This document shows positions 1 through 42,985 of a stretch of DNA of 49,933 nt, one piece after another. Each line of letters starts with the position of its first letter. Within the stretch, counting starts at the first letter, position 1. The translations under genes and the position numbers were made by a program. The notes below the pieces were generated by a model, which did not search any database, had not been told where the DNA came from, and saw only the letters and a list, made by a program, of their open reading frames with translations. The DNA lies in contig NZ_FOAI01000006.1 of NCBI RefSeq assembly GCF_900109705.1, forward strand, positions 224,941 through 274,873, written 5' to 3'. Source of the stretch: Roseivivax marinus (GTDB lineage: Bacteria; Pseudomonadota; Alphaproteobacteria; Rhodobacterales; Rhodobacteraceae).

Positions 1-8
1 CCTCCGCA

Positions 9-90
9 CCGAGCCGTGGACCCTCTCCTCCTCCCTTGGGGTTCTCGGAACCAGCGACGGCGCCTCTCCTCCTCCCTGGCGTCGTCGCAC
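9..90 (+). ncRNA. CcsR/cuckoo-type small RNA, copy 1
   Basis: Two consecutive hairpins each expose a CTCCTCCTCCCT loop. Hairpin 1 pairs 9-13 with 44-48 and 20-23 with 39-42. Hairpin 2 is a perfect 11-bp stem (54-64 with 78-88, one G-U) around loop 65-77. The loop is complementary to a Shine-Dalgarno sequence. Known family: Rhodobacter sphaeroides CcsR RNAs (conserved CCUCCUCCC motif, stress induced), generalised as the cuckoo RNA family, have two such hairpins and occur in tandem. The exact ends are inferred; the array probably continues left of the window. Confidence 0.8.
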
Positions 91-132
91 CGAACACAGC
101 GGACCCGGATGCCCGATGCATCCCCCTCCGCA

Positions 133-214
133 CCGAGCCGTGGACCCTCTCCTCCTCCCTTGGGGTTCTCGGAACCAGCGACGGCGCCTCTCCTCCTCCC
201 TGGCGTCGTCGCAC
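133..214 (+). ncRNA. CcsR/cuckoo-type small RNA, copy 2
   Basis: This is a second copy with the same two-hairpin design, identical in sequence to copy 1 and shifted by 124 bp. Loops with CTCCTCCTCCCT start at 148 and 189; the second stem is 178-188 with 202-212. No promoter is visible in the 36 bp separating it from copy 1, so the copies are probably cut from one transcript, as described for the R. sphaeroides CcsR array (inference). Confidence 0.8.
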
Positions 215-247
215 CGAACATCGCCGGGCCCTGCGCCCGGCAGAGAC

Positions 248-326
248 GAAGGCCCGCCTCCTCCTCCCTGCGGGTCTTCCATTCGGGCGGTGGCGCCCCT
301 CCTCCTCCCTTGGCGCCACCGCTCCG
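248..326 (+). ncRNA. CcsR/cuckoo-type small RNA, copy 3
   Basis: This third copy has a different sequence but the same fold. Hairpin 1 is a 10-bp stem, 248-257 with 270-279, around loop 258-269. Hairpin 2 is a perfect 11-bp stem, 287-297 with 312-322, around loop 298-311. Both loops again contain CTCCTCCTCCCT, 41 bases apart as in the other copies. Stems differ from copies 1 and 2 while loops are kept, which is compensatory conservation expected of a real structured RNA. Confidence 0.8.
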
Positions 327-434
327 ACCCCTCCCCGAGACGACAGACGCGGCGACGCTTTTCCTTCCCGCCCCGCTTCGCTAGATGGTGCCCGACACGC
401 GCCTTCGGGCGAGACGACAGACGGGGGCCGGACA

Positions 435-3400
435 ATGGCGATGGACAAGACCTTCGACGCGAAAGAGGCCGAGGCCCGGCTTTACGCCGCCTGGGAAGAG
501 GCAGGCTGTTTCCGCGCCGGCGCAAACGCGACCGACGGGGCCGAGAGCTTCAGCATCATGATCCCGCCGCCGAACGTGACGGGCTCGCTGCACATGGGCC
601 ACGCGTTCAACAACACGCTGCAGGACATTCTCGTGCGCTGGCACCGGATGCGCGGGCACGACACGCTCTGGCAGCCCGGTCAGGACCACGCGGGCATCGC
701 CACGCAGATGGTCGTCGAGCGCGAGCTGGCAAAGGATTCCGCGAATGCCACCCGCCGCGAGATGGGACGCGAGGCTTTTCTCCAGAAGGTCTGGGAGTGG
801 AAGCAGCAGTCCGGCGGCACCATCATCACCCAGCTCAAGCGGCTGGGCGCATCCTGCGACTGGGATCGCAACGCCTTCACCATGTCGGGCGCCCCGAACG
901 CGCCCGAGGGCGAAGAGGGCAACTTCCACGACGCGGTGATCCGCGTCTTCGTGGAGATGTATGACAAGGGCCTGATCTACCGCGGCAAGCGGCTGGTGAA
1001 CTGGGACCCGCATTTCGAGACGGCGATCTCGGATCTCGAGGTCGAGAACGTCGAGCAGCCCGGCCATATGTGGCACTTCAAATATCCGCTCGCGAACGGT
1101 GCGACCTACACCTATGTCGAGAAGGACGCGGACGGGAACGTGCTGTTCGAGGAAGAGCGCGACTACATCTCCATCGCCACAACGCGCCCCGAGACCATGC
1201 TGGGCGACGGCGCGGTCGCGGTGCATCCCTCGGACGAGCGGTATGCCCCGATCGTCGGGCAGCTGTGCGAGATCCCGGTCGGCCCGAAAGAACATCGCCG
1301 CCAGATCCCGATCATCACCGACGAATATCCCGATCCGGACTTCGGCTCGGGCGCGGTCAAGATCACCGGCGCACACGACTTCAACGACTATGCCGTTGCC
1401 AAGCGCGGCGACATTCCGTGCTATCGCCTGATGGACACCGCCGCGCGGATGCGGGCGGACGGCGCGCCCTATGCCGAGGCCGCCGAACTGGCGATGGCCG
1501 TGGCCAAGGGCGAGCGCGGCCTGTCGGAGAACGAGGCCGACGCGGTGAACCTCGTGCCGGACGACCTGCGCGGCCTCGACCGGTTCGAGGCGCGCGAGGC
1601 GGTCGTCCGCCAGATCACCGACGAGGGCCTCGCGGTCATGGTCCCGCCCACCGATCCGCGACTCGGCACCAAGCCGCCCGCCGCGCCGGAAGAGGGCGGC
1701 GAGCCCCGCGACGAGCAGCTCGTGCCCCTGGTCGAGTCGAAGCCGATCATGCAGCCCTTCGGCGACCGCTCGAAGGTGGTGATCGAGCCCATGCTCACCG
1801 ACCAGTGGTTCGTCGACACCACGAAGATCGTCGGCCCCGCCCTCGACGCGGTGCGCGACGGCACGGTCCAGATCCTGCCCGAGCGCGACAAGAAGGTCTA
1901 TTTCCACTGGCTCGAGAACATCGAGCCCTGGTGCATCTCGCGCCAGCTCTGGTGGGGTCACCAGATCCCGGTCTGGTACGCGCCGAACCCCTCGGGGGGT
2001 GCCGACTGGATGCGGGTCTGCGCGGCGTCCGAGGCCGAGGCGCTGGAGGAGATTCGCCTCCTCTGGGGCGAGGACACCGACCTGCGTCTCGTCGCGGACG
2101 AGCGCGAGGCGGCCGAGCTGTTGCAGGACCTCGTGGGCAACCTCACCGACGAGGGCGCGATCCGGCAGCCGCAGTCGCCCTCCATCGTCCCGGTGTTCCG
2201 CGACCCCGACGTGCTGGACACGTGGTTCTCGTCCGGTCTCTGGCCCATCGGCACGCTGGGCTGGCCCGAGGACACCGACGCGTTGAAGCGCTACTTCCCG
2301 ACCTCGGTGCTGGTCACCGGCTTCGACATCATCTTCTTCTGGGTCGCCCGGATGATGATGATGCAATACGCGGTGGTCGGCGAACGCCCCTTCGATACGG
2401 TTTACGTCCATGCCCTCGTCCGCGACGAGAAGGGCAAGAAGATGTCCAAGTCGCTGGGCAACGTGCTCGACCCGCTGGACCTGATCGACGAGTACGGCGC
2501 CGACGCGGTGCGCTTCACGCTATCTGCGATGGCGGCAATGGGTCGGGACCTGAAGCTGTCCAAGGACCGGATCGCGGGCTACCGCAACTTTGGCACCAAG
2601 CTCTGGAACGCCTGCCGTTTCGCCGAGATGAACGGTGTCTTCGGCGCGGATGTGCCCGAGTGGGTTGCCACGCCCGCCCCGACGCAGACCGCGAACGCGT
2701 GGATCGTCGGCGAGACCGCGCAAATACGCGCCGAGACCGACGCCGCGCTCGAGCAGTTCCGCTTCAACGACGCGGCCAACGGACTCTACGCCTTTGTCTG
2801 GGGCCGGGTCTGCGACTGGTACGTGGAATTCGCCAAACCGCTGCTCGACAGCGAGGACACCGCCGTGCAGTCCGAAACCCGCGCCACCATGCGCTGGGTG
2901 CTCGACCGGTGCCTGCTCATGCTGCACCCGTTCATGCCCTTCATCACCGAAGAGCTTTGGGGCACGCTGGCGGAGCGCGACACCATGCTGGTGCATGGCG
3001 ACTGGCCCGCGGACGATCCCGCGCAGCTGGTGAACGAGGACGCCGCCCGCGAGATGTCGTGGGTGATCTCGCTGATCGAGGGCGTCCGCTCGGCCCGCGC
3101 GCAGATGCGGGTCCCGGCCGGGATGCACGTCGCGATGCTGGTCAGCGGCCTCGACGCCGCCGGCCGCGCCGCTTGGGAGGCCAACGCCGCTCTCATCAGC
3201 CGCACGGCCCGGATCGAGACGCTCGACGAAGTGGACACGTTCCCCAAGGGCACGGTCACGATCCCCGTGGGCTCGGCCACGTTCGGCCTGCCCCTCGAGG
3301 GCCTGATCGACCCCGCCGAGGAAATCGCACGGCTGGAAAAGCAGAAAGCCAAGCTTTCCAAGGAGATCGGAGGCCTCGAAGGGCGCCTCAAGAACCCCAA

Positions 3401-3518
3401 GTTCGTGGAGAGCGCGCCGGACGAGGTGGTCGAGGAAGCGCGGGAGAACCTCGCTGCGCGTCAGGAAGAGATGACAGCGATCGATGCCGCGCTCGACCGT
3501 CTGCGCGAACTCGGCTGA
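435..3518 (+). CDS. valS: valine--tRNA ligase
   Basis: Charges tRNA-Val with valine in the cytoplasm. The class I signature HMGH lies at residues 53-56 and KMSKS at 669-673, with the catalytic Rossmann domain, a large CP1 editing insertion, the anticodon-binding domain and a C-terminal coiled coil (about 960-1027, Lys/Glu/Leu rich) typical of ValRS. Length 1027 residues fits the alphaproteobacterial form. The start at ATG 435 is chosen because the protein begins there with the family N-terminus; the open frame continues upstream only through the small-RNA array. The leader 327-434 has a 14-bp direct repeat (336-349, 410-423) and no strong ribosome binding site. A terminator follows at 3535. 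Confidence 0.97.
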
Positions 3519-25747: not shown

Positions 25748-25775
25748 CGTGACCATGCTGCGGGAGGAGGACCCA

Positions 25776-26321
25776 ATGCCCGACACACTGAAAGACATCC
25801 CTTCGAGGCCCGGCGACGGGATCGCGTCCCTGATCGACGCACCCGTCGTCATCCTCCTACCGTGCTCCGACGCACTGTCGCCGGAGTGTCGCGCGCTTCT
25901 CCGGCGCGCCTTCGCCGGGCCCGGCGCGCACGTGATCTGCATGCGCGAAGCCGGCAATGTCAGCAGTTTCGGCGCGCCGTGCCTGCGCGCAGGTGCCACG
26001 GAAATGGCCTTCGCAGAACTCGGCGGACGCCCCGGAGAGATCACCGCTCTGCGCCGCCCGACCGGCTGGGCCGGACAGGCCAACACGTTCACAATGCTCG
26101 CGCGCCAGGTCGGGGCCGTCGCCCAGGCGATCGGCGCCTATCGCCTGATCCTGATGCCGGGGAGCGATGCGGACGTCGAGCATCAAGCCACCGGCCAGAT
26201 CGCCGATATGGCTGCCGCGATGTTCGACCTGCAGGTGTCCCACGTGCCGGACGCGATCACCGCGCCCGCCGGAGGAACGGCGGCGCATGGCGGGTCCGGA
26301 ATCGTCTTTGCAGGCGCCTAG
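25776..26321 (+). CDS. conserved-looking hypothetical protein downstream of otsA
   Basis: A 181-residue protein not recognised. The start at ATG 25776 has a very strong site, GGGAGGAGG (25762-25770), so it is a real gene. The middle (residues 31-140) alternates hydrophobic strands and helices (VVILLPCSD, YRLILMPGSDADVEH) like a small alpha/beta fold; it has three cysteines and no signal peptide or membrane helix. Position 28 bp after otsA suggests a shared message and a stress-related role, but no function is claimed. Confidence 0.7.
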   Translation: MPDTLKDIPSRPGDGIASLIDAPVVILLPCSDALSPECRALLRRAFAGPGAHVICMREAGNVSSFGAPCLRAGATEMAFAELGGRPGEITALRRPTGWAGQANTFTMLARQVGAVAQAIGAYRLILMPGSDADVEHQATGQIADMAAAMFDLQVSHVPDAITAPAGGTAAHGGSGIVFAGA

Positions 26322-42332: not shown

Positions 42333-42626
42333 GACACGAGCGAACGAACCAGCCTGTTGGCCGGTGCCCGCCGCACCCGCACATCGCGGCCCGTTGACCG
42401 CCCGGTAAGGTGGACTTTAGGTCGCACCCGGCCTTTGACCACGTTTCCGCCCGGGAGTCATCCGTCGAGCGGACTTGCAAATGACAGGTTTCGGCCCGGC
42501 GGGCAAAATCGCGGCATCCGTCACGGTGGGCGAGCCGGTCTCTCCCGGCCAACCGCCTTCCACCTTTGGGGAAACCGCCGGCCTCCGGATTTCACCCGAT
42601 AATGAGAATTTGCGGCGGAATCCCCT
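42333..42626. other. intergenic DNA between BCCT and ssrA promoters
   Basis: These 294 bp have no gene with a credible start and no strong terminator. They separate the divergent BCCT and ssrA transcripts. Confidence 0.4.
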
Positions 42627-42654
42627 TTGCACGGACGACCGGGGCGCCTATGTT
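42627..42654 (+). promoter_or_regulatory. sigma70 promoter of ssrA
   Basis: TTGCAC (42627-42632), 16 bp and TATGTT (42649-42654) predict a start near 42661, directly before the acceptor piece of the tmRNA. Confidence 0.6.
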
Positions 42655-42660
42655 ACAAAC

Positions 42661-42985
42661 TGTCTCGGCAACGGGACTATGGGCATAAACGCGCTCGTAA
42701 TAAGCGGATCGGACCCGGGGGCGGTACCCGGCGGCTCCACCAAACATCCCGTCGTTGGGGGATCATGGGGCCGAAATAGGATCGACGAACGTGTAAAGGG
42801 GTGGCTTTGTCCCGGTGAGATACCACCGTTATCGGTTCATTAAGCATAATTGCCAACGACAATCGTGCTCCGGTTGCCCTCGCTGCGTAAGCAGTGCGGA
42901 AAACCGATCTTTGAAGCCCAGCTCCTCTAGCAAGGACTGGCGGGGTTCGCAGGCACCTGGCAACAGAAGCCTGCACTACTTCCTT
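42661..42985 (+). ncRNA. ssrA: two-piece (circularly permuted) tmRNA
   Basis: Rescues stalled ribosomes by trans-translation. The gene is permuted as in other Alphaproteobacteria: the acceptor piece comes first and ends in CGGCTCC-A-CCA at 42742; 24 bp later the coding piece begins GGGGCCG at 42767. These 7-base ends pair completely (one G-U). The tag frame runs from GCC 42852 to TAA 42888-42890 and encodes ANDNRAPVALAA. GGATCGACG follows the 5' end as in tmRNAs. The T-arm stem 42715-42719/42727-42731 holds a 7-base loop GGCGGTA, unlike the usual TTCRANY. The 3' end of the coding piece is approximate. Confidence 0.95.

Follow-up and report, generated by a model that had tools for sequence, protein, structure and literature searches.

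A ccaF1-CcsR-type array of anti-Shine-Dalgarno hairpins ahead of valS in Roseivivax marinus, and its conserved promoter module

The stretch of Roseivivax marinus DNA considered here (the window; 49,933 nucleotides in total, contig NZ_FOAI01000006.1) opens with a run of hairpins whose loops carry an anti-Shine-Dalgarno sequence and which stand immediately ahead of valS, raising the question of whether they belong to the leader of that gene or to a separate RNA locus that happens to lie there. The original prediction, made from the letters of the window, placed them among the CcsR/cuckoo RNAs of Rhodobacterales, set them apart from the R. sphaeroides locus for want of a DUF1127 gene, and considered that read-through might place them in the valS leader.

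Anatomy of the array and its closest relatives

The exact 12-mer CTCCTCCTCCCT is found at window positions 25-36, 66-77, 149-160, 190-201, 258-269, and 299-310, that is, as six motifs in three units, with a start-to-start distance of 41 nt inside each unit and periods of 124 and 109 nt from unit to unit. The features of this part of the window are as follows.

11..93, + strand: CcsR-like unit, the fourth seen in the contig, two hairpins, motifs at 25-36 and 66-77
54-64 and 78-88, + strand: hairpin 2 arms of the 11..93 unit
107..123, + strand: spacer hairpin GGATGC-N5-GCATCC between units, inverted repeat
135..217, + strand: CcsR-like unit, two hairpins identical to those of the 11..93 unit, motifs at 149-160 and 190-201
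223..241, + strand: spacer hairpin GCCGGGC-N5-GCCCGGC ahead of the last unit, inverted repeat
243..327, + strand: last, diverged CcsR-like unit, 0.69 identity to its neighbour, motifs at 258-269 and 299-310
287-297 and 312-322, + strand: hairpin 2 arms of the last unit, 100% complementary

The six hairpins in three tandem units that had been predicted are therefore borne out, as are the 41-base distance and the identity of the loops, and window positions 1-330 fold far better than shuffled sequence (z -7.1; none of 100 shuffles as good). In the minimum-energy fold of these 330 nt all three hairpins 2 form together with hairpin 1 of unit 3, whereas in units 1 and 2 other pairings take the place of hairpin 1. 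It had also been claimed that the stems of unit 3 differ from those of the other two while all remain perfectly paired; the first part stands, but the second does not, since in units 1 and 2 the stem of hairpin 1 contains a mismatch and a G-U pair (by eye) and that of hairpin 2 is 91% complementary. The spacers between units, with short inverted repeats of their own, had not been listed previously.

The window begins directly after a run of 95 N that lies inside the array, and the contig holds three more units to the left, ahead of this run. The whole array thus comprises at least six units and 12 CCTCCTCCC motifs, of which 11 contain the exact 12-mer, the unit count being a lower bound because the N run sits within repeats. 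All 11 exact copies in the 4.0 Mb genome occur on one strand in a single 751-nt stretch, which is this array; neither the other strand nor a reversed-control motif gave a match in the same search. A 71-codon DUF1127 gene on the same strand ends ∼180 nt before the first motif, just outside the window (Pfam PF06568, 39.2 bits against a cut-off of 23.3; 38.1 bits in a whole-genome search), so that the locus runs from the DUF1127 gene through at least six units to valS. The supposed contrast with R. sphaeroides was therefore an edge effect, arising because the DUF1127 (CcaF1-like) gene, a conserved promoter module, and three units sit left of the window. The window edge divides a ccaF1-CcsR (CIN1/cuckoo) locus and leaves only its 3′ half inside; the array does not stand alone at valS, and the full locus is present. 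Three further DUF1127 matches above the cut-off and one just under it were seen on contigs C24, C12, and C39 of the same genome, none with the exact array motif, which is confined to the valS array.

The Rfam CcsR1 model (RF02791) matches all six units in an Infernal search at 35.2-50.3 bits, the three window units giving E-values of 8e-11, 8e-11, and 5e-7 (48, 48, and 35.2 bits), and the ar14 model (RF02344) matches several units, with a best score of 45.1 bits. The covariance search extended to the left, which had been proposed as a check, accordingly found every unit, but all below the gathering score: 65.3 bits for CcsR1, reached by none of the six, and 58.8 bits for ar14, likewise not reached by any unit. 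In a default Rfam scan of the window tmRNA and tRNA are the sole families reported, without CcsR1 or ar14, and in the loci of 17 relatives CcsR1 passes in two and ar14 in one; because so few pass, these cut-offs are narrow, and they miss most CcsR-type members in Rhodobacteraceae. An alphaproteobacterial (permuted) tmRNA gene lies at window positions 42622-42977.

Conservation in related genomes had been named as a test of the prediction, and the array pattern with paired stems was indeed found in relatives. The paired-motif pattern is present in 142 of 198 family genomes and in eight of nine genus genomes, R. marinus included, and the gene order and promoter of the locus recur in other genera. 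A lone motif pair apart from the valS array, with no DUF1127 or valS match nearby, was seen in one genus genome (L168; G200:C1:211934-211981).

The best-matching known system is ccaF1-CcsR1-4 (CIN1) of Rhodobacter sphaeroides, described as a 71-aa DUF1127 protein gene followed on the same strand by RNAs with two CCUCCUCCC-loop hairpins each (PMC10253847; PMC8307010). Because gene order, protein size, and unit anatomy agree, the R. marinus array was filed with it: judged by its sequence it is a ccaF1-CcsR (CIN1/cuckoo) locus, a known stress-response system of the family, real but mostly familiar. It shows the tandem two-hairpin RNAs, here in at least six units, that are the hallmark of CcsR, and the constant CCUCCUCCC loops on stems of varied sequence that are the hallmark of cuckoo RNAs. 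It differs from the R. sphaeroides operon in having at least six units rather than four, in being followed by valS, in lacking a detectable intrinsic terminator 3′ of the array where that operon has one, in its sub-gathering CcsR1 score, and in a degenerate RpoH-like −10 element. Sinorhizobium ar14/NfeR1 likewise has CCUCCUCCC loops on varied stems, and its third stem is partly matched by the spacer hairpin; however, it is described as one RNA of three hairpins, unlike the tandem two-hairpin units behind a DUF1127 gene found here (45.1 against 58.8 bits). The AbcR1 and AbcR2 RNAs of Rhizobiales, compared by description only, share transport and metabolic mRNA targets and the activation of an AbcR RNA by LsrB/VtlR (PMC10746234; PMC7486931), and their anti-Shine-Dalgarno motifs are described as similar, not identical (PMC10746234). 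The array is, on these comparisons, a functional-looking additional member of the ccaF1-CcsR system.

The array and the valS gene

Two features follow the array on the same strand.

359..387, + strand: promoter-like valS block TTTTCC-N17-TAGATG between array and valS, conserved with and without an array
435..3518, + strand: valS, valyl-tRNA synthetase of 1027 aa, a neighbour outside the RNA system

The chief alternative is a cis role for the hairpins, in which transcripts running on from the ccaF1 promoter would make them part of the valS leader and couple valS to stress. The array stands directly before valS in R. marinus and in seven of the eight other genus genomes, hence in all eight that show it, with the last exact motif 108-161 nt from the valS start in the seven and 134 nt in R. 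marinus. The eighth, G198, has a contig that begins 113 bases before valS (start at base 114), and since it begins so near the gene its array may have been lost to assembly; in G200 the contig holds just the last part of the array. The repeats thus coincide with assembly breaks, as the N run in R. marinus and the contig ends in G198 and G200 illustrate. Read-through is also favoured by the lack of a detectable intrinsic terminator on the + strand after the array: a single T is found among the 8 bases 3′ of the extended stem of the last unit, the corresponding count in other genus members being 1 to 6.

Against this, array and valS are separated by a TTYYCC-N(16-18)-TAD block in 17 of 18 array-linked entries (L064 and L170 being one genome), and the block is also a feature of valS loci that have no array, at 59 of 72 of which it was detected, versus 4 of 4360 control windows. 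A stricter pattern was present at 5 of 8 array-linked and 29 of 72 array-less loci and in none of 3840 controls, although both patterns were written after the array-linked alignment had been viewed. The 72 array-less loci come from 80 named valS loci, of which only eight have an upstream array on the same strand, its last exact motif lying within 265 nt in six and at 1.0 and 1.6 kb in two, and the arrays retrieved from other genera mostly lack a valS match in their vicinity. Several relatives, moreover, have a T-run after the last hairpin or a strong terminator-like hairpin before valS, and in 7 of 11 arrays that are not directly before valS the 8 bases 3′ of the last exact-motif hairpin are T-rich (at least five T), such that this hairpin could be the terminator in those arrays. 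The block is read as an old valS promoter, suggesting that the array was set ahead of it as a separate unit, and because the block stands between the two, and also at array-less loci, the array is not the usual valS leader. The leader idea is therefore weakened, although read-through into valS may occur in R. marinus; as the explanation of the hairpins, we regard it as unlikely. A 17-nt direct repeat, CGAGACGACAGACG(C/G)GG, at window 336-352 and 410-426 flanks the valS promoter block.

Promoter module and candidate targets

The main new point of this analysis concerns the sequence ahead of the DUF1127 gene. Upstream of ccaF1 in relatives is a module consisting of TGCR-N5-YGCATR, 18-25 nt, TTGTGCANNYGCAGCA, and then a YYATNTT-like element. 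The second module element is present in 23 of 27 array loci (missing in L171, L175, L096, and L180), and 123 of 198 family genomes carry the combined pattern, with two copies in six of these, whereas neither the reversed nor the wrong-spacing control gave a match in the 198. Module and array are both listed for thirty genomes, in which 31 modules precede the first listed motif pair by 68-580 nt (median 322), sharing its contig and strand; one further module (G010:C8) has no listed array nearby. Each of 30 module loci that were read has a motif downstream, with a DUF1127 match between the two in 27. The other three, L264 (G128), L258 (G092), and L273 (G127), have module and downstream motifs with no DUF1127 match between them in tblastn with the R. 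marinus protein, and the first motif of L264 follows its module by only 106 nt. The module is specific enough for ccaF1-CcsR loci to be found by a simple pattern.

The first module element equals TGCA-N6-GCAT, the reported LsrB site upstream of nfeR1, which encodes an ar14 RNA (PMC10746234). The promoter words given for RpoHI/RpoHII are TTG and TAT (PMC10673084), and in many relatives TTG and a YAT-like element stand at a matching spacing, the −10 of R. marinus itself being degenerate. A simple sigma-70 scan of its extended locus (L012, 4300-6000) gave no sites, which shows only that the simple sigma-70 consensus does not fit there. We tentatively propose, at somewhat less than even chances, that a LysR regulator of the LsrB/VtlR kind controls ccaF1-CcsR across Rhodobacteraceae via TGCA-N6-GCAT at a near-fixed distance from an RpoH-like core. 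Were this so, the Rhodobacterales arrays and the rhizobial ar14/AbcR RNAs would represent one old regulon of a LysR regulator and anti-Shine-Dalgarno RNAs, whose output would be set by loop number and altered by recombination. The module names a candidate class of regulator, and shared control of the rhizobial and Rhodobacterales RNAs is therefore directly testable. The family-wide ccaF1 promoter module with its LsrB-like site may already be in print; the passages of the literature that were surveyed do not mention a LysR-type box for CcsR loci.

Loops of this kind would be expected to act at translation starts. Start sites of the form GGGAGGAG-N(2-10)-ATG number 34 in the R. marinus genome, an excess over the two given by the reversed pattern, and all 30 that were read start a frame of at least 71 codons. 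By Pfam, 10 of the 30 belong to transport components and five have no match, others including SoxA, a SoxY-SoxZ protein, a cytochrome c near SoxA, SBP56, and acyl-CoA enzymes. The control was CAAGGAG, a pattern adopted in place of an earlier one that gave five sites; it yielded 70 start sites, of which 30 were read, 26 of these opening a frame of 60 codons or more. Transport components account for 10 of 30 GGGAGGAG sites versus 2 of 26 CAAGGAG sites (two-sided p 0.025; small, unmatched site sets), a weak hint of enrichment for transport mRNAs, as strong Shine-Dalgarno words serve ribosomes too. One candidate target lies within the window.

25762-25778: GGGAGGAG start site of a 181-codon frame with no Pfam match at 1e-5

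The candidate targets described for NfeR1 are mostly ABC transport mRNAs, and its CCUCCUCCC loops have been reported to pair with a translation start in a reporter assay (PMC10746234). The likeliest function of the R. marinus array would be the induced blocking of Shine-Dalgarno sites, including those of transport and catabolic mRNAs. The conserved promoter upstream of the small DUF1127 gene would give one precursor in which the DUF1127 mRNA is joined to six or more two-hairpin units, and RNase E, with involvement of the DUF1127 protein, would cut this precursor into sRNAs of ∼80 nt as in R. sphaeroides. In each sRNA two unpaired CUCCUCCUCCCU loops would bind purine-rich Shine-Dalgarno sites and keep a set of mRNAs from being translated, the candidates including mRNAs for transport and for sulfur/carbon catabolism. 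The many near-identical units would raise the dose, and the operon would be under stress control. We hold with good confidence that a ccaF1-CcsR operon whose loops would block Shine-Dalgarno sites is the best explanation of the array.

The many identical loops per transcript could instead titrate a protein or ribosomes, serving for example as a decoy that captures the DUF1127 protein or initiating ribosomes, with no antisense action on chosen mRNAs. The DUF1127 gene does lie in the same operon, and CcaF1 of R. sphaeroides is reported to bind RNA (PMC10253847). However, the loops carry the anti-Shine-Dalgarno sequence, so no pairing with 16S rRNA itself is expected, and the comparable loop of NfeR1 is reported to work by mRNA pairing (PMC10746234), making titration quite unlikely.

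Stem covariation and turnover of the units

The aligned units show constant loops on changing stems. In 56 distinct units, drawn from 16 array loci that have valS downstream, 99.7% of the 616 cells of hairpin 2 are paired, both sides have changed at 9 of its 11 pairs, and none of 500 shuffles reaches the observed pairing, which drops to 29-65% when the partner is slid by 1-3 columns; the loops hardly vary while the stems covary strongly. RNAalifold on the unit alignment recovered hairpin 2 but not hairpin 1, whose length is variable and for which arm swapping was used. This drew on 94 distinct units from 26 loci, six mis-phased or doubtful units having been dropped from 100 extracted (one each of L168, L175, L178, and L096, and two of L176). 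In all 94 units and for both hairpins a unit's own arms beat the mean with the arms of other loci, the energies being −17.3 versus −9.5 kcal/mol for hairpin 1 and −26.4 versus −16.9 kcal/mol for hairpin 2. Together with the CcsR1 E-values and the conservation in relatives, this covariation upholds the assignment to a CcsR/cuckoo-type array.

Units 1 to 5 of the contig are 0.98-1.0 identical to their neighbours, as a meaningless tandem duplication or a mobile-element repeat would also be, but the stem covariation in effect refutes this reading, all exact 12-mers of the genome are in one place, and the gene order and promoter are kept in other genera; we consider it highly improbable. There is practically no chance that the array codes for an N-terminal extension of ValS, even though the frame 3-3518 is open from the window start through valS, since the periods are not multiples of 3 and put each unit in another frame, the stems covary as RNA, and the ValS match starts at residue 1 to 3 in 80 relatives, 72 of them array-less.

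Within the ccaF1-CcsR array, near-identical interior units are thus followed by a diverged last one. A uniform interior with diverged ends is also seen in L172 and L173 and a diverged 5′ end in L184 and L178, L169 and L109 being uniform and L174, L059, and L170 diverged throughout. The pattern of identity between neighbouring units fits turnover by unequal recombination, though other histories could produce it. The arrays that were read hold 2 to 26 exact motifs, the highest number being that of L178 (G165:C1), where the spacings suggest a three-hairpin period rather than one of two.
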